From: Morinoia aosen
Taxonomy: Eukaryota > Arthropoda > Malacostraca > Amphipoda > Talitridae
Reading direction: 5' to 3'
DNA: 64,000 bases
NCBI GenBank assembly: GCA_030386875.1
Contig: CM059580.1
Coordinates: forward strand, 3,686,838-3,750,837
The notes beneath the pieces are model-generated. The model saw only the letters and a program-made list of their open reading frames with translations, ran no database searches and had not been told where the DNA came from. This document shows positions 4,957-41,675 of this stretch, one piece after another. How positions within the stretch are numbered: the stretch's first letter is position 1; the number at the start of each line of letters is the position of its first letter. The position numbers were made by a program, and so were the translations under genes.

Positions 4957-5582
4957 TAAACTATCAGTTGCAGCCTACACCTTTTCAGTTGGATTATGTG
5001 TTTCCAGTTGGGATGCCTTTTCAACACCTTTAAATAATTGATAAACTCAATTATTAATTTAGTATTGAAATAATTATTTATTACAGGCTGATCAGAACAC
5101 CGATCAAAAAATCGTCAAATTTAAAAAGTTGTTAAATTTTAGTTTGTAATGAACATGAATCTCATTTTAGATTTAGATCGAATTAACGTTCCAGCATATT
5201 TAAAGGAACCTAATTGTAACAGTTATTTGTTTATGTCTTTTCATTTTGTTATTATTGCTTAAGCCAAAGTTCCTTTAAAAAATGATAAAATAAAATTTTC
5301 TTGGTGTCTGCGATAAACGTTTGCTAGTGAAACTAGACTAGAATCTCAGTAATATTAATGATGGTAATGATAATAGTAATTGTAAAATAATAATAAATAG
5401 AACACGAGCTGCCATTTTATTCATAAATGTTCACTGTTGAAATTGTTACCTTTTTTCGCGTAAAATAAACTTAACTAATAATTCATTTTTTGTTTTTGTT
5501 GTTCTTTTCACCTAATAGAGATTATTCTGTGTGCCTGAGCGTGACTGCCAGAGTTGGTGACTATTGAAGATTAGATGACTAG
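4957..5582. other. Unique AT-rich spacer
   Basis: The first ~60 bases hold decayed copies of the preceding array (CAGTTGG motifs). The remainder is AT-rich with no supported gene. Confidence 0.5.
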
Positions 5583-5850
5583 CTAGTTTACGCCTCCTTA
5601 TCCTTCACAAAGGCAATCCAAAGAGAGGAAGAAGGAAGGCACCATTTAGTATGGAGTTGAGGGAACGCGGAATCTACGCACAAGGTGCACAGAAACAGTA
5701 AGCTAAGAAAGAAGTTCATGAAACAAGACAAAAGTAGAAGAAGAAAGCAATAGGTGCTGAAAAACAGGACAGCAGTCAACCGAAAAAAGATGGTCCGTAA
5801 CAAAACAAAAACCTATTCTATTTCTACACAAGGAAGGCCTACCTAACTCT
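5583..5850 (+). mobile_element. Element D, copy 1
   Basis: This is a dispersed element recognised by comparison inside the window. A variable 5' part (AGTTTA, GCCTCC, then GAGAGGAAGAAGGAAGGCAC) leads into a 180-bp core at 5664-5843. That core differs from the cores at 7499, 21414, 27727 and 41000 by at most one or two bases by eye. The core begins AACGCGGAATCTACGCAC and ends CACAAGGAAGGCCTACC. In this copy the CAGCTCGGGA end runs directly into the 23-bp array that follows. No transposase, tRNA-like head or poly(A) tail is visible, so the class is unknown. Confidence 0.8.
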
Positions 5851-5854
5851 CAGC

Positions 5855-6060
5855 TCGGGAATTATACTATTGAGAACATATGACTTATATTATTGAGAAC
5901 ATATGACTTATATTATTGAGAACATATGACTTATATTATTGAGAACATATGACTTATATTATTGAGAACATATGACTTATATTATTGAGAACATATGACT
6001 TATATTATTGAGAACATATGACTTATAGTATTCAGAAACTATGACTTATATTATTGAGAA
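5855..6060. repeat. Tandem array, unit 23 bp, ~8 copies
   Basis: Units contain TTATTGAGAACATATGACTT. It abuts the end of element D copy 1. The last two units are degenerate. Confidence 0.9.
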
Positions 6061-7164: not shown

Positions 7165-7720
7165 TTGCCTTCCTAACCTGAACAAAAGAGAGGAAGGAGT
7201 AAGGCACCGTTTAGTGCGGAGTTAATACCCTATATCAACGAAATTTTCGGACTTTGAACGAAATGATACGGTAATTTCTATTATTTTATCATTGACAGAG
7301 CAAGTAAATCTGAACTTTTCATCGAAGCATTTAGAAAATACGAACGATGTTGAGTGATTTTTCAAAGTCGTTCAGAAAAAACGGTAGTCGATGTAGGATT
7401 AAAGGGAACGGGGAATCTATGCACGCGGTGTCCCTCCCAGCAAGTCAGGAAGGAACGGGGAATCTATGCACGCGGTGCCCCCCAGCAAGTCAGGAAGGAA
7501 CGCGGAATCTACGCACAAGGTGCACAGAAACAGTAAGCTAAGAAAGAAGTTCATGAAACAAGACAAAAGTAGAAGAAGAAAGCAATAGGTGCTGAAAAAC
7601 GGGACAGCAGTCAACCGAAAAAAGATGGTCCGTAACAAAACAAAAACCTATTCTATTTCTACACAAGGAAGGCCTACATAACTCTCAGCTCGGGACCTCA
7701 CATATTCCCCCAGGGAACGC
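7165..7720 (+). mobile_element. Element D, copy 2, interrupted and with VNTR
   Basis: The 5' part (7165-7224, GAGAGGAAGGAGTAAGGCAC) is separated from the rest by ~170 bp of other sequence (7225-7394). Then come two units of a 46-47-bp internal repeat (GGGAATCTATGCACGCGGTG, CAGCAAGTCAGGAAGG), the conserved core (7499-7677) and the 3' end CAGCTCGGGACCTCACAT followed by CCC..GGG near-palindromic sequence. Confidence 0.8.
7225..7394. repeat. Insert inside element D, related to 59870-60005
   Basis: The segment holds ATCTGAACTTTTCATCGAAGC and GAACGATGTTGAG. Related strings occur near 59822 and 59908-59975 in gene B's last visible intron, so this is a second dispersed repeat, apparently inserted into D. 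Confidence 0.45.
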
Positions 7721-7804
7721 TAATTCCCACAGATGCAACACGAGACCAGTGAACAGGGACCGCACAATGGCAGTACATAGTTGTTTCGCAATTACAATTC
7801 GCGG

Positions 7805-20675: not shown

Positions 20676-20754
20676 ATACACGGCCTGTCCAAAATGACGG
20701 GATTCGATATTTTTCCTAAATAAATCCTCCAAGTGTGGAAGATTAGATTAGAGT

Positions 20755-20925
20755 ATTAGTTAGTTTAAGCCTCCCTGTCCGCCACAAAGGCGATCCAGAG
20801 AGAGGAAAAAGGAAGGCACCATTTAGTATGGAGATAAAGGAACGCGGAATCTATGCACTAGGATCATAGAAACAGTAAGTAGAGAAAAAAGAATAGGAAA
20901 CATGATCGAAGTCGAAGATGTTGAA
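20755..20925 (+). mobile_element. Element D, diverged partial copy
   Basis: AGTTTAAGCCTCCCTGTCCG, AAGGCACCATTTAGTATGG and GGAACGCGGAATCTATGCAC match D. After that the core is much more diverged than in other copies (AGAAACAGTAAGTAGAGAAA) and fades out, so this is an older copy. Confidence 0.75.
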
Positions 20926-21357: not shown

Positions 21358-21630
21358 GAAAAGTATTCCGTAGAGAGGAAGGAGGAAGGCACCATTTAGT
21401 ATGGAGTTGAGGGAACGCGGAATCTACGCACAAAGTGCACAGAAACAGTAAGCTAAGAAAGAAGTTCATGAAACAAGACAAAAGTAGAAGAAGAAAGCAA
21501 TAGGTGCTGAAAAACAGGACAGCAGTCAACCGAAAAAAGATGGTCCGTAACAAAACAAAAACCTATTCTATTTCTACACAAGGAAGGCCTACCAAAACTA
21601 CGACACGGGACCTTCAGGAGCACTAGTTCC
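21358..21630 (+). mobile_element. Element D, copy 3
   Basis: The conserved core is at 21414-21593 with one visible substitution (CAAAGTGCAC). There are no 46-bp VNTR units. The 3' end differs (CGACACGGGACCTTCAGGAG) but keeps the GGGACCT...TTCCC arrangement. Confidence 0.8.
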
Positions 21631-27364: not shown

Positions 27365-27960
27365 TTAGTTTAAGCCTCCCTAACTGTTACAAAAAAAGAG
27401 CGTATCGAAGAGTGGAAAGAGGAAGGCACCGTTTAGTATGGAGAAAAGGGAATGCGGAATCTATGCACGCGGTGTCCCCTCAGCAAGTCAGGAAGGAACG
27501 GGGAATCAATGCACGCGGTGTCTCCCCAGCAAGTCTGGAAGGAACGGGGAATCAATGCACGCGGTGTCTCCCCAGCAAGTCAGGAAGGAACGGGGAATCA
27601 ATGCACGCGGTGTCTCCCCAGCAAGTCAGGAAGGAACGGGGAATCAATGCACGCGGTGTCTCCCCAGCAAGTCAGGAAGGAACGGGGAATCTATGCACGC
27701 GGTGTCTCCCAAGCAAGTCAGGAAGGAACGCGGAATCTACGCACAAGGTGCACAGAAACAGTAAGCTAAGAAAGAAGTTCATGAAACAAGACAAAAGTAG
27801 AAGAAGAAAGCAATAGGTGCTGAAAAACAGGACAGCAGTCAACCGAAAAAAGATGGTCCGTAACAAAACAAAAACCTATTCTATTTCTACACAAGGAAGG
27901 CCTACCTCACCCTCAGCTCGGGACCTCACATATTCCCCTTGGGAGCAGCACTTCCCATAG
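27365..27960 (+). mobile_element. Element D, copy 4 with expanded VNTR
   Basis: This is the fullest copy. AGTTTAAGCCTCCCTAACTG starts the 5' part, then about six 46-bp VNTR units (27445-27726), the conserved core (27727-27906), and the end TCAGCTCGGGACCTCACAT followed by ATTCCCCTTGGGAGCAGCAC and TTCCCATAG. This terminal segment is the one that recurs, inverted, at 38538-38580. Confidence 0.85.
27445..27726 (+). repeat. 46-bp VNTR inside element D
   Basis: About six copies of a unit containing GGGAATCAATGCACGCGGTG and CCCAGCAAGTCAGGAAGG. The D copy at 7400 has two and the other D copies have none. Confidence 0.9.
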
Positions 27961-28228
27961 ATAAATAACAGCATCCCTATGATGCGAATAATACCCTAAA
28001 TAACAAATTTATTACCCTACACAACACATCAAGGATGGCTCACAAACATTTTTTACCCTAAAAGTTAACTAAATGTTACCCTAAAATATTCTCAAGCATC
28101 ACCCAAAATACAATTTTCCAACTTATAGACTACATTTAATAGCTTCAAAAAAATTAACCAACTTACAAAAATTCCTAATATATTTCAAGGCAATTTCAAC
28201 GCGCATAGAATAGTGATCTTCCGGACGT
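27961..28228 (+). repeat. AT-rich flank, left arm of an inverted duplication
   Basis: It contains TTTTTTACCCTAAAAG, GTTACCCTAAAATATTC, and near its end TTCAACGCGCATAGAA then GTGATCTTCCGGACGTGTAC. The reverse complement of 38140-38535 has the same motifs in the same order. Confidence 0.75.
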
Positions 28229-29296
28229 GTACGTCGCCTGTATGTTGTGTACGTCGCCTGTATGTTGTGTACGTCGCCTGTACGTTGTGTACGTCGCCTG
28301 TATGTTGTGTACGTCGCCTGTATGTTGTGTACGTCGCCTGTATGTTGTGTACGTCGCGTGTATGTTGTGTACGTCGCCTGTACGTTGTGTACGTCGCCTG
28401 TATGTTGTGTACGTCGCCTGTATGTTGTGTACGTCGCCTGTATGTTGTGTACGTCGCCTGTATGTTGTGTACGTCGCCTGTATGTTGTGTACGTCGCCTG
28501 TACGTTGTGTACGTCGCCTGTATGTTGTGTACGTCGCCTGTATGTTGTGTACGTCGCCTGTATGTTGTGTACATCGCCTGTATGTTGTGTACGTCGCGTG
28601 TACGTTGTGTACGTCGCGTGTACGTTGTGTACGTCGCGTGTACGTTGTGTACGTCGCCTGTACGTTGTGTACGTCGCCTGTACGTTGTGTACGTCGCCTG
28701 TACGTTGTGTACGTCGCCTGTACGTTGTATACGTCGCCTGAACGTTGTATACGTCGCGTGTACGTTGTGTACGTCGTGTGTACGTTGTGTACGTCGTGTG
28801 TACGTTGTGTACGTCGTGTGTACGTTATGTACGTCGTGTGTACGTTGTGTACGTCGTGTGTACGTTGTGTACGTCGCCTGTACGTTGTGTACGTCGTGTG
28901 TACGTTGTGTACGTCGCTTGTACAATGTGTAAGTCGCCTGTACATTGTGTACGTCGCCTGTACGTTGTGTACGTCGCCTGTACGTTGTGTACGTCGCCTG
29001 TACGTTGTGTACGTCGCCTGTACGTTGTATACGTCGCCTGTACGTTGTATACGTCGCGTGTACGTTGTGTACGTCGTGTGTACGTTGTGTACGTCGTGTG
29101 TACGTTGTGCACGTCGTGTGTACGTTATGTACGTCGTGTGTACGTTGTGTACGTCGTGTGTACGTTGTGTACGTCGCCTGTACGTTGTGTACGTCGTGTG
29201 TACGTTGTGTACGTCGCTTGTACAATGTGTACGTCGCCTGTACATTGTGTACGTCGCCTGTACGTTGTGTACGTCGCCTGTACGTTGTGTACGTCC
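28229..29296 (+). repeat. 20-bp satellite, left array (~53 copies)
   Basis: The unit is GTACGTCGCCTGTATGTTGT, drifting to GTACGTCGCGTGTACGTTGT and GTACGTCGTGTGTACGTTGT rightwards. From 28690 to 29290 a 300-bp higher-order block of 15 monomers is repeated. The marker GCTTGTACAATGTGT lies at about 28916 and 29216. All six frames are open because 20 bp is not a multiple of three and the unit lacks stops. Confidence 0.97.
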
Positions 29297-35910: not shown

Positions 35911-38140
35911 GCGACGTACACAACGTACAGGTGACGTACACAACGTACACGCGACGTACACAACGTACACGCGACGTACACAACGTACACGCGACGTACA
36001 CAACGTACACGCGACGTACACAAAGTACACGCGACGAACACAACGTACACGCGACGTACACAACGTACACGCGACGTACACAACGTACACGCGACGTACA
36101 CAACGTACACGCGACGTACACAACGTACACACGACGTACACAACGTACACACGACGTACACAACGTACACGCGACGTACACAACGTACACGCGACGTACA
36201 CAACGTACACGCGACGTACACAACGTACACGCGACGTACACAACGTACACGCGACGTACACAACGTACACGCGACGTACACAACGTACACGCGACGTACA
36301 CAACGTACACGCGACGTACACAACGTACACGCGACGTACACAACGTACACGCGACGTACACAACGTACACGCGACGTACACAACGTACACGCGACGTACA
36401 TAACGTACACGCGACGTACACAACGTACACGCGACGTACACAACGTACACGCGACGTACACAACGTACACGCGACGTACACAACGTACACGCGACGTACA
36501 CAACGTACACGCGACGTACACAACGTACACGCGACGTACACAACGTACACGCGACGTACACAACGTACACGCGACGTACACAACGTACACGCGACGTACA
36601 CAACGTACACGCGACGTACACAACGTACACGCGACGTACACAACGTACACGCGACGTACACAACGTACACGCGACGTACACAACGTACACGCGACGTACA
36701 CAACGTACACGCGACGTACACAACGCACACGCGACGTACACAACGCACACGCGACGTACACAACGCACACGCGACGTACACAACGCACACGCGACGTACA
36801 CAACGTACACGCGACGTACACAACGTAAACGCGACGTACACAACGTACACGCGACGTACACAACGTACACGCGACGTACACAACGTACACGCGACGTACA
36901 CAACGTACACGCGACGTACACAACGTACACGCGACGTACACAACGTACACGCGACGTACACAACGTACACGCGACGTACACAACGTACACGCGACGTACA
37001 CAACGTACACGCGACGTACACAACGTACACACGACGTACACAACGTACACGCGACGTACACAACGTACACGCGACGTACACAACGTTCACGCGACGTACA
37101 CAACGTTCACGCGACGTACACAACGTTCACGCGACGTACACAACGTACACGCGACGTACACAACGTACACGCGACGTACACAACGTACACGCGACGTACA
37201 CAACGTACACGCGACGCACACAACGTACACGCGACGTACACACCGGACACGCGACGTACACAACGTACACGCGACGTACACAACGTACACGCGACGTACA
37301 CAACGTACACAACGTACACGCGACGTACACAACGTACACACGACGTACACAACGTACACGCGACGTACACAACGTACACGCGACGTACACAACGTACACG
37401 CGACGTACACAACGTACACGCGACGTACACAACGTACACGCGACGTACACAACGTACACGCGACGTACACAACGTACACGCGACGTACACAACGTACACG
37501 CGACGTACACAACGTACACGCGACGTACACAACGTACACGCGACGTGCACAACGTACACGCGACGTGCACAACGTACACGCGACGTACACAACGTACACG
37601 CGACGTACACAACGTACACGTGACGTACACAACGTACACGCGACGTACACAACGTACACGCGACGTACACAAGGTACACGCGACGTACACAACGTTCACG
37701 CGACGTACACAACGTTCACGCGACGTACACAACGTACACGCGACGTACACAACGTACACGCGACGTACACAACGTACACGCGACGTACACAACGTACACG
37801 CGACGTACACAACGTACACGCGACGTACACAACGTACACGCGACGTACACACCGGACACGCGACGTACACAACGTACACGCGACGTACACAACGTACACG
37901 CGACGTACACAACGTACACAACGTACACGCGACGTACACAACGTACACGCGACGTACACAACGTACACGCGACGTACACAACGTACACACGACGTACACA
38001 ACGTACACGCGACGTACACAACGTACACGCGACGTACACAACGTACACGCGACGTACACAACGTACACGCGACGTACACAACGTACACGCGACGTACACA
38101 ACGTACACGCGACGTACACAACGTACACGCGACGTACATG
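35911..38140 (-). repeat. 20-bp satellite, right array (~111 copies), inverted
   Basis: The unit on the + strand is GCGACGTACACAACGTACAC, the reverse complement of the 28.2-kb array's unit. It is very homogeneous. Rare markers (CACCGGACACG at 37242 and 37851, and a 9-bp partial unit at about 37302 and 37911) show that a 609-bp block (30 units plus 9 bp) was duplicated in tandem near the right end. Confidence 0.97.
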
Positions 38141-38537
38141 TCCCGAAGATTACTACTTTATGTGCGTTGAAGTTACCTTAAATTATTTTACTAATTTTGT
38201 ATAATATTTGAGTTCGTTTATTAATTTTTAGAGTTATAAATTCCAGTCTAATTAGTACTTTTGAAATAAATATTCAAGTGACACATGAAGATATTTTAGG
38301 GTAATATTTAGAAAATATTTAGGGTAAAAAATATTAGCGAGCTACCGTAATATTTGTGGGGTAAAATATTCGGATATTTAGAATATTATGCACCTATGAT
38401 AAATTAGATCATCTTAGGGTAATATTTAGGGAATCTTTAGGGTAAAAAATATTAGTGAGCTAAAACCCAATTTATTTGTGTAAAATATTTGGATATTTAG
38501 GGTAGTTCACTCCCCAGAAGGATGAATTTTTCTTTTT
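38141..38537 (-). repeat. AT-rich flank, right arm of an inverted duplication
   Basis: Its reverse complement parallels 27961-28228: TTCAACGCACATAAAG, ATTACCCTAAAATATC and TTTTTTACCCTAAA. It is longer than the left arm because a ~112-bp block with TTAGGGTAAAAAATATTAG occurs twice (about 38290-38395 and 38408-38510). Confidence 0.75.
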
Positions 38538-40040
38538 ATGGGAAGTAGCGCTCCCAGGGGGAAGATGTGAGGTCCCAGGGAAATAAACGATCCCAGGGGG
38601 AAGATGTGAGGTCCCAGGGAAATAAACGATCCCAGGGGGAAGATGTGAGGTCCCAGGGAAATAAACGATCCTAGGGGAAAGATGTGAGGTCCCAGGGAAA
38701 TAAACCATCCCAGGTGAAAGATGTGAGGTCCCAGGGAAATAAACGATCCCAGGTGAAAGATGTGAGGTCCCAGGGAAATAAACGATCCCAGGGGAAAGAT
38801 GTGAGGTCCCAGGGAAATAAACGATCCCAGGTGAAAGATGTGAGGTCCCAGGGAAATAAACCATCCCAGGTGAAAGATGTGAGGTCCCAGGGAAATAAAC
38901 GATCCCAGGGGGAAGATGTGAGGTCCCAGGGAAATAAACCATCCCAGGTGAAAGATGTGAGGTCCCAGGGAAATAAACCATCCCAGGTGAAAGATGTGAG
39001 GTCCCAGGGAAATAAACGATCCCAGGTGAAAGATGTGAGGTCCCAGGGAAATAAACCATCCCAGGTGAAAGATGTGAGGTCCAAGGGAAATAAACCATCC
39101 CAGGTGAAAGATGTGAGGTCCCAGGGAAATAAACGATCCCAGGGGGAAGATGTGAGGTCCCAGGGAAATAAACCATCCCAGGTGAAAGATGTGAGGTCCC
39201 AGGGAAATAAACGATCCCAGGTGAAAGATGTGAGGTCCCAGGGAAATAAACGATCCCAGGGGGAAGATGTGAGGTCCCAGGGAAATAAACCATACCAGGT
39301 GAAAGATGTGAGGTCCCAGGGAAATAAACGATCCCAGGTGAAAGATGTGAGGTCCCAGGGAAATAAACGATCCCAGGTGAAAGATGTGAGGTCCAAGGGA
39401 AATAAACCATCCCAGGTGAAAGATGTGAGGTCCCAGGGAAATAAACGATCCCAGGGGGAAGATGTGAGGTCCCAGGGAAATAAACCATCCCAGGTGAAAG
39501 ATGTGAGGTCCCAGGGAAATAAACGATCCCAGGGGGAAGATGTGAGGTCCCAGGGAAATAAACCATCCCAGGTGAAAGATGTGAGGTCCCAGGGAAATAA
39601 ACGATCCCAGGTGAAAGATGTGAGGTCCCAGGGAAATAAACCATCCCAGGTGAAAGATGTGAGGTCCCAGGGAAATAAACGATCCCAGGTGAAAGATGTG
39701 AGGTCCCAGGGAAATAAACGATCCCAGGGGGAAGATGTGAGGTCCCAGGGAAATAAACCATCCCAGGTGAAAGATGTGAGGTCCCAGGGAAATAAACCAT
39801 CCCAGGTGAAAGATGTGAGGTCCCAGGGAAATAAACCATCCCAGGTGAAAGATGTGAGGTCCCAGGGAAATAAACGATCCCAGGGGGAAGATGTGAGGTC
39901 CCAGGGAAATAAACGATCCCAGGTGAAAGATGTGAGGTCCCAGGGAAATAAACCATCCCAGGTGAAAGATGTGAGGTCCCAGGGAAATAAACGATCCCAG
40001 GGGGAAGATGTGAGGTCCCAGGGAAATAAACGATCCAATA
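38538..40040 (-). repeat. 39-bp satellite derived from the end of element D (~38 copies)
   Basis: The unit holds GATGTGAGGTCCCAGGGAAA and TAAACGATCCCAGGTGAAA. Its left edge (TATGGGAAGT, GCTCCCAGGGGGAAGATGTG, AGGTCCC) aligns at roughly 38 of 43 positions with the reverse complement of the D end at 27918-27960. Early left units have the GGGGGAAG form, most like D. The length is a multiple of three, so several frames are open (FPGTSHLSPG type) without being genes. Confidence 0.93.
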
Positions 40041-40525
40041 AAACCCAATTTAAAAAAACCCGCGATAATCTAAGCAAAAAAACGTGAGAAATGCTAATAA
40101 AAAGTCATTAATTCCGGCAAAAAATAACGGCAATAATTCAATGAAAGAAGAAGCAAAACATCATAAGGCTGTAAGTCCATAGAAAGCAAAATAAGGCAAT
40201 AATTCTAGAAAAAAAGTAATAATTCAACATGAAACAAAATATTTCCAGAAAAAAACGATAATTCAACAAAAAGGAGACAATATTTCCAGAAATCTTTTCA
40301 AGAAAATGAATATTTTTCGGAAAAAAAAATAATTGAACAAAAGAAGCAACAACTCAACAAAAAGTCACCAATTGCACAGAAGCAGAGCACGGCACAAACC
40401 AGAACAAATAAATAAATACAAATTTTCTATGGAATTGGCGCAAGAAAATCCCGGCCGCTGCTGCGACCGTTGCCGCAGTAACGGTTTGGGGGCAGAAAAT
40501 AGCGGACTTTGTGCCTGGAGTAGGC
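40041..40525. repeat. A-rich degenerate repeat and unique DNA
   Basis: AATAATTCAACAAAAAG- and ATTTCCAGAAAAA-like motifs recur irregularly to about 40380. After that there is a short GC-richer piece (CCGGCCGCTGCTGCGACCG). No gene is supported. Confidence 0.4.
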
Positions 40526-40850: not shown

Positions 40851-40927
40851 GAGGTGCCGTGATTTCAACAGGCATGGAACAGTGAAATAGAGAAGAAACT
40901 TTATTAGATAAAATCAAATATAAGTCG

Positions 40928-41222
40928 AAGCCTCCCTAGTCGCAAAATACGTTTCGAAGAGAGGAAGGAGGAAGGCACCATTCAGTATGGAGTTGAGGGA
41001 ACGCGGAATCTACGCACAAGGTGCACAGAAACAGTAAGCTAAGAAAGAAGTTCATGAAACAAGACAAAAGTAGAAGAAGAAAGCAATAGGTGCTGAAAAA
41101 CAGGACAGCAGTCAACCGAAAAAAGATGGTCCGTAACAAAACAAAAACCTATTCTATTTCTACACAAGGAAGGCCTACCTCACCCTCAGCTCGGGACCTC
41201 ACATGTGTCCCTGGGGGGCCAC
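40928..41222 (+). mobile_element. Element D, copy 5
   Basis: GAAGCCTCCCTAGTCG starts the 5' part. The conserved core is at 41000-41179, with no VNTR units. The end is CAGCTCGGGACCTCACAT then GTGTCCCTGGGGGGCCACAC. Confidence 0.82.
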
Positions 41223-41469: not shown

Positions 41470-41675
41470 ACCATTCTATCACAGTTCCCCACTCTACCCA
41501 GGTGTTCTCCCCGTTGGGAAAAGGGAGAACTCAGCCACAATTCCCCACTCTACCCAGGTGTTCTCCCCGTTGGGAAAAGGGAGAACTCAGCCACAATTCC
41601 CCACTCTACCCAGGTGTTCTCCCCGTTGGGAAAAGGGAGAACTCAGCCACAATTCCCCACTCTACCCAGGTGTCG
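41470..41675. repeat. 54-bp repeat, ~4 copies
   Basis: The unit contains CCACTCTACCCAGGTGTTCT, CCCCGTTGGGAAAAGGGAGA and ACTCAGCCACAATTC. It is nearly perfect. Confidence 0.95.

Follow-up and report, generated by a model that had tools for sequence, protein, structure and literature searches.

The 39-bp satellite at positions 38552 to 40036 of the stretch of DNA analysed here (the window: 64,000 nucleotides, positions 3686838 to 3750837 of contig C25) is, in our assessment, quite likely to be a private, retroposon-derived satellite that grew, by the steps set out below, from a join between the head of a dispersed element, D, and non-D sequence. Satellites born from retroposons are already known, and this array is a further case, with the anatomy of the SINE-derived satellites (sSats) of squamate reptiles. 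Because one D family shows a single duplication, arrays flanked by D and arrays with a D remnant, the order of events becomes testable. The regional form of the D core on contig C25, described further below, is a stronger lead than the satellite itself. An initial annotation had proposed that the satellite was born from an end of D, and this interpretation is partly supported: its outline was right, and the end of D involved, the chimeric nature of the unit and the order of events have been corrected.

Genome searches covered the 1.99-Gb assembly of 29 contigs. The array is placed 3.73 Mb from the start of the 55.1-Mb contig C25, a single locus being too little to speak for or against a preference for chromosome ends.

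Element D

Alignment of 12 of 20 fetched loci showed that D is an element of about 360 bp that starts at a fixed point (CCCCTCAGGGGGATACAATTATTGTATCTATGGG...) and finishes in TCTAA-like repeats; this simple-repeat 3′ tail, (TCTAA)n, is present at the right end of most of the aligned loci. A 30-base pattern for the head, allowing up to 3 mismatches, gave 11,302 + 11,543 = 22,845 matches in the genome and none for the reversed control, and so D copies share this terminus genome-wide, as an origin of the satellite from it presupposes.

Target-site duplications were examined at 19 of the 20 loci (L018 was left out), of which three without a recognisable right end were dropped, leaving 16. A flank-to-flank match score of at least 14 was found for 9 of these 16 D loci vs 14 of 240 mismatched pairs; seven D loci exceeded the best of the 240 mismatched pairs, and none of 2000 partner permutations reached the observed total. 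Loci L015 and L016, neither of which has a duplication, look like copies of one locus, and both were kept. No Rfam match was obtained with one D copy and no tRNA in seven loci, searches that a decayed head could escape. Judged by its sequence, D is a dispersed SINE-like retroposon without a recognised Pol III head. Its sense strand is the strand of the satellite, and the founding piece is therefore the 5′ head of D; the initial annotation had taken it for the 3′ end, which the target-site duplications and the tail contradict.

The array and its D edge

Array detection, unit typing and a genome junction search placed 38 whole units followed by TCC at 38552 to 40036 on the forward strand, in agreement with the approximately 38 units estimated initially. 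The unit is chimeric: 25 nt come from the D head (38552 to 38576 in the first unit), and 14 nt are non-D (AGGGAAATAAACGA). The 25 D bases are an exact T variant of the D head, as found in L009 and L017. The 14 nt do not resemble the continuation of D (p 0.987), and as for their source, the right flank was no better than chance (305 of 500 shuffles reached its score); 8-base matches of the same quality exist in D and in the left flank. A 31-base pattern spanning the junction, searched in the whole assembly with up to 3 mismatches, gave 37 matches, all 37 inside this array, and the 39-bp unit was thus found at no other place. The unit opens with TCC, a trinucleotide that also follows immediately on the last unit. 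An 8-mer common to both halves of the unit, TCCCAGGG, is the sole basis of the idea that the unit arose by internal duplication (5 of 2000 shuffles reached its score). Open frames running through the array were dismissed as genes, since they follow from a unit of 39 bp, or 13 codons; a Pfam search with five long reading frames of the window gave no match at E 0.01.

At the left edge of the array lies the 5′ head of D, about D positions 3 to 68, at 38512 to 38576 (forward strand), as defined by alignments to D and the continuity of the flank. Positions 38538 to 38576 align with the reverse complement of 27920 to 27958 with 36 identities in 40 columns, 2 mismatches and two one-base gaps, for a score of 56 as compared with a shuffle maximum of 25 (n=500). 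The homology claimed by the initial annotation as a match at 38 of 43 positions thus stands in gapped form; taken without gaps, the coordinates given there yield 13 of 43. Against the 362-base majority sequence of D, 38525 to 38576 match D 17-68 at 88.5% (E 1.2e-13), and a laxer alignment pairs 38512 to 38551 with D 3-43 (score 30, reached by none of 300 shuffles; maximum 26).

Flanks and the inverted duplication

The left flank of the array occurs at 38139 to 38511 on the forward strand (copy 2 of an inverted duplication, identified by genome search) and at 27988 to 28226 on the reverse strand (copy 1, by genome search and alignment). The latter was the one other match in the genome to 38139-38537, in inverted orientation, and the flank thus exists in two copies. 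Homology to copy 1 runs unbroken from the flank across the start of D into the head (38411 to 38576 against about 28087 to 27920) and stops at GGTCCC. The terminus of D therefore sits exactly where the inverted duplication predicts it, as had been proposed.

In copy 1, alignment to D showed the head and core of D (D 10-261) at 27725 to 27977 on the reverse strand. A 46-bp tandem array was detected in the 3′ part of this copy (27449 to 27744, reverse strand), and D 243-358 continues at 27467 to 27351. The flank is followed in both copies by a 20-bp array, at 28227 to 29295 (reverse strand; a 92% inverted match to 35933-37001) and at 35911 to 38138 (forward strand; array detection and inverted match), on the inner side of which no further homology between the inverted copies was found.

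On the other side of the 39-bp array, the right flank (40037 to 40520, forward strand; genome search and alignment) is without D body and has weak matches to contig C21 in part. No D body was found in the 201 bases to the right of the array (114 and 214 of 300 shuffles reached the score on the two strands), which bears out the statement that the rest of D is missing there. The weak relatives, at C21:115.01 Mb, are of positions 40172 to 40363 (bases 136 to 327 of the right flank), a segment that includes a 40-bp repeat at 40198 to 40292.

Order and states of the units

The whole units fall into 8 types with few variable sites, and hence ordered states were used to test the position of the founder. 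The order of the units is AAABCCDECFECEGCFCCFHCGCFCFCECCFEECAECA, in which the first 25 bases of types A and F are identical to D, types B and D carry G10A, and types C, E, G and H carry G8T together with G10A. Unit typing and shuffling of the unit order showed that the three founder-type (A) units at 38552 to 38668 (forward strand), whose D part is identical to D, stand together at the left edge (P 0.0011), and that both one-step units lie within the first seven (P 0.03). Founder-like units are thus found at the D-like left edge, where the initial annotation had expected them. The order is not a clean gradient, because the D-identical head state is present in 11 of the 38 units throughout the array, including the last. 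No higher-order structure was found in the unit order (largest z 1.6).

Tandem growth from D elsewhere in the genome

Satellite growth from D recurs in this genome, from the head or from the body. A tandem pattern of a 13-mer from the head (T variant) gave 91 + 3 matches in the genome, vs 4 + 0 for the reversed control, at eight loci: on C12, C17, C20 and C22, and four on C25 (285 kb, 1.98 Mb, 2.17 Mb and the 39-bp array). The bases preceding the head 13-mer match D at the 39-bp array (0 of 1000 shuffles), at C25:285 kb (p 0.002) and at the pair at C25:1.98 and 2.17 Mb (p 0.001). The corresponding values were 0.07 for C22, 0.23 for C20, 0.26 for C17 and 1.0 for C12; at the C12, C20 and C22 loci a D origin is not demonstrable beyond the 13-mer used in the search, and the C17 locus (52.7 Mb) is D by context only, with D 32-68 followed by D 54-231 and D 238-362, the last two about 1 kb apart. 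The G variant of the head characteristic of a young subfamily, GATGTGAGGGCCC, gave 0 tandem matches in the genome. The suggestion that the array at C25:285 kb keeps the outer head of D was not supported, its edge being no better than chance (84 of 300 shuffles reached the score).

A tandem pattern of a 13-mer from the D body gave 10 + 43 matches (control 0) at 19 places, with two clusters on C9 counted apart. Seven of the 19, namely four fetched loci, C17:45.44 Mb and the two C9 clusters, were checked, and all proved to be in D. This body control rules out the head as a special hotspot. None of the 19 places is in C25:0-8.85 Mb, a count that is uninformative because the regional core there differs at one base of the 13-mer.

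The array at C17:45.44 Mb, with 20.3 copies of a 23-bp unit, is preceded by D 30-164 and followed by D 136-322, and its period equals the spacing of TTTTTC repeats in D. The array at C9:86.39 Mb has a 37-bp unit and lies some 45 kb short of the end of the contig. D 72-161 borders it upstream, no 3′ part of D adjoins it downstream, and a separate complete D copy follows after about 1.15 kb; these results come from separate readings of the two edges, which did not extend through the array. A division of the C9 unit into 22 D and 15 foreign bases was dropped, as some of the "foreign" bases occur in D context at the edge; the 22 were kept. Within C9:86362876-86396431, the 37-bp D-body array occurs at two places with the same downstream flank and D copy; this sharing points to a probable joint duplication of array and flank close to the end of the contig. 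The stages seen among D copies extend from a single duplication up to arrays of 2 kb or more.

Proposed origin of the array

The origin that we favor begins with a D element beside the 20-bp array, in a segment that would have been copied in inverted orientation, or broken later. One copy would have been left with the first approximately 68 bases of D joined to unrelated sequence. The flank-D boundary common to both copies and the absence of D body at the array are what is observed of this truncation; which break produced it is something that we infer. A 39-bp stretch across the D/non-D join would then have been duplicated in tandem, possibly guided by TCC, whose presence at the start of the unit and after the last unit would fit a duplication guided by a 3-base match. 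Unequal exchange or slippage would have extended the array to 38 units, and G10A and then G8T would have spread through it; these states are observed in the units, and their order and the process of spreading are as we would reconstruct them. No function need be invoked for the origin of the array.

A rival account, which we consider rather unlikely and yet the most serious of those weighed, is that a complete D was duplicated, that the array grew within it and that the D body was deleted later. Arrays with D on both sides do exist, at C17:45.44 Mb and C17:52.7 Mb, but the present unit holds 14 nt unlike D, and non-D sequence sharing the TCC follows immediately on the array, which suggests that the join is older than the amplification.

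We consider it improbable that the D head beside the array arrived independently of the insertion in copy 1, through a later insertion or as a captured fragment. D heads abound in the genome (22,845), and that of the founder is closer to the family majority than is the head of copy 1; however, the alignment with copy 1 passes from flank to D at the same place, and the flank has only one other match. Because the flank-D boundary is common with copy 1 and the flank exists only twice, the insertion of D most likely preceded the inverted duplication, to go by the alignments. The original suggestion that D was lost from this place or never present is thereby narrowed: the body is indeed absent, and the choice between the two tends towards a former presence.

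An assembly artefact in a repeat-rich place might be feared where tandem arrays make up 51% of the window; this we hold to be very improbable, as the units differ (8 types) and the genome holds one other match to the left flank and none to the near right flank. The reverse direction, in which the retroposon family took its head from the satellite, can practically be discarded, since nothing was found in its favor and 22,845 head matches genome-wide vs one array locus contradict it.

A regional D core on contig C25

Five D copies in the window keep the whole core, of about 180 bp, and are near-identical over D 101-250. All are on the reverse strand: copy 1, already described, and the copies with the regional core at 5568 to 5859 (which adjoins a 23-bp array at D 66), 7405 to 7738 (with a 45-bp array in its 3′ part), 21369 to 21596 and 40903 to 41204, identified by alignment to D with core searches or array detection. 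Over D 69-250, for example, the copies at 27 and 41 kb are identical in 184 of 184 columns. Agreement among the five copies is far lower in the first 68 bases than in the core. A partial copy from D 182, at 20742 to 20918 (reverse strand; alignment to D), is not of the regional type (121 identities and 27 mismatches against the 41-kb copy), nor is L009 at C25:2.41 Mb.

When a 202-base query from copy 1 was used, the best 40 of 3483 candidates, the query itself included, were all on C25 between 2.5 and 8.8 Mb at 99-100%. A 71-base piece of the core had 68 exact matches in the genome, all within C25:59,066-8,852,619 (control 0); with up to 3 mismatches there were 151 matches, and among the 100 listed, all were on C25 below 8.86 Mb. 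In a single control, the same region of an ordinary C17 copy of D (40 scored of 6046 candidates), the best 39 other matches were at 86-89% and on 17 contigs.

Eleven C25 copies, the five of the window and six picked from the 68 among the best matches of the 202-base query, had a mean pairwise identity of 0.99-1.00 over D 85-250, a value that is partly by construction as all carry the exact 71-mer. The ends are free of this effect, with identities of 0.31 (D 1-30), 0.57 (D 31-68), 0.53 (D 301-330) and 0.43 (D 331-362); three copies that contain 46-bp repeats depress the 3′ figures, and truncation instead of decay may account for some of the starts. Over D 81-261, at least 10 of the 11 copies agree, and 25 sites there, two of them insertions, differ from the majority D sequence; the longest open frame in this core has 51 codons. 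The 68 exact core copies form 21 orientation runs vs 33.9 expected (P 0.0009), and these runs perhaps follow the orientation of genes. The longest run, of 18 copies in minus orientation, lies between 3.69 and 4.90 Mb.

Identical cores with different ends argue for non-allelic gene conversion rather than recent insertion, and our reading is that regional conversion of this kind, possibly with selection, would have produced the regional core. Purifying selection on an old regional subfamily, alone or together with conversion, is a possible alternative. More tentatively, and with some doubt on our part, the first 8.85 Mb of C25 may be a domain of exceptional non-allelic exchange, or one in which selection spreads a single core by such exchange. 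In such a domain, old dispersed insertions of D would have had their core of about 180 bp overwritten over megabase distances, with the ends left different, and the cause of regional concerted evolution would be directly testable. The same exchange activity may breed satellites there: four of the eight head-tandem loci fall within this stretch, which makes up 0.44% of the genome (the count takes no account of how many D heads are present there, and becomes three origins if the two loci with an identical 41-bp repeat are counted as one), and half of the window consists of tandem arrays. This part of C25 could represent a young segment that is linked to sex or subject to some other special regulation.

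Comparison with known systems

In the portions drawn on here, the account of squamate sSats (Vassetzky et al. 2023, PMC10702118) describes units that are fragments of a short retroposon, in some cases extended by bases of unknown origin; in most arrays a longer terminal unit matches the SINE up to its terminus, and most primary duplications stay single instances. The 39-bp array is alike in having a retroposon-piece unit (25 of 39 nt from the D head), extra non-element bases and a longer terminal unit reaching towards the terminus of the element (D 17-68; D 3-43), and its 38 units compare with the at least 4 middle units by which sSats are defined. Unlike the sSats so described, it derives from an element without a recognised Pol III head, has a unit of 39 bp, is found at one locus only and stands at one end of a private inverted duplication. 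Minisatellites and satellites derived from transposable elements are attributed more generally, in the parts of PMC9659126 and PMC12628747 used here, to tandem growth of part of an element, for which break repair and unequal exchange have been proposed; in comparison with the cases given there, several stages can here be compared within one family and one genome.

For the regional core, the closest likeness is to the ISX elements on the neo-X chromosome of Drosophila miranda, reported in the sections consulted of PMC4384637 to undergo non-allelic gene conversion; gene conversion among transposable elements is also treated in PMC8230782, likewise used in part. As far as the former describes them, ISX elements share with the D core the combination of many dispersed copies, one chromosome and one converted haplotype, and the D core differs in being about 180 bp long, spread over 8.85 Mb of one contig and known here from sequence alone. 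A limited literature search found no title on the 39-bp array or on family D, and absence from print is not claimed.

Other arrays in the window

Tandem arrays cover 50.9% of the window vs 13.3% of the 20 fetched loci, which were chosen for their D heads rather than at random and include one, L009 (35%), in the same region of C25. The right edge of a 56-bp array at 41480 to 41673 (forward strand) runs into sequence in common with locus L073 (score 147 vs a maximum of 23 in 200 shuffles). This shared sequence, for which no tRNA or Rfam family was found, is possibly a second retroposon, going by a stretch in it that resembles a Pol III B box. Repeats of 45 or 46 bp occur in the 3′ part of the D copies at 27449 to 27744 and 7405 to 7523, and a similar repeat is present in L048 and L088. 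At 5859 to 6060, a D copy starting at D 66, near the position at which D stops in the satellite (68), meets the 23-bp array.
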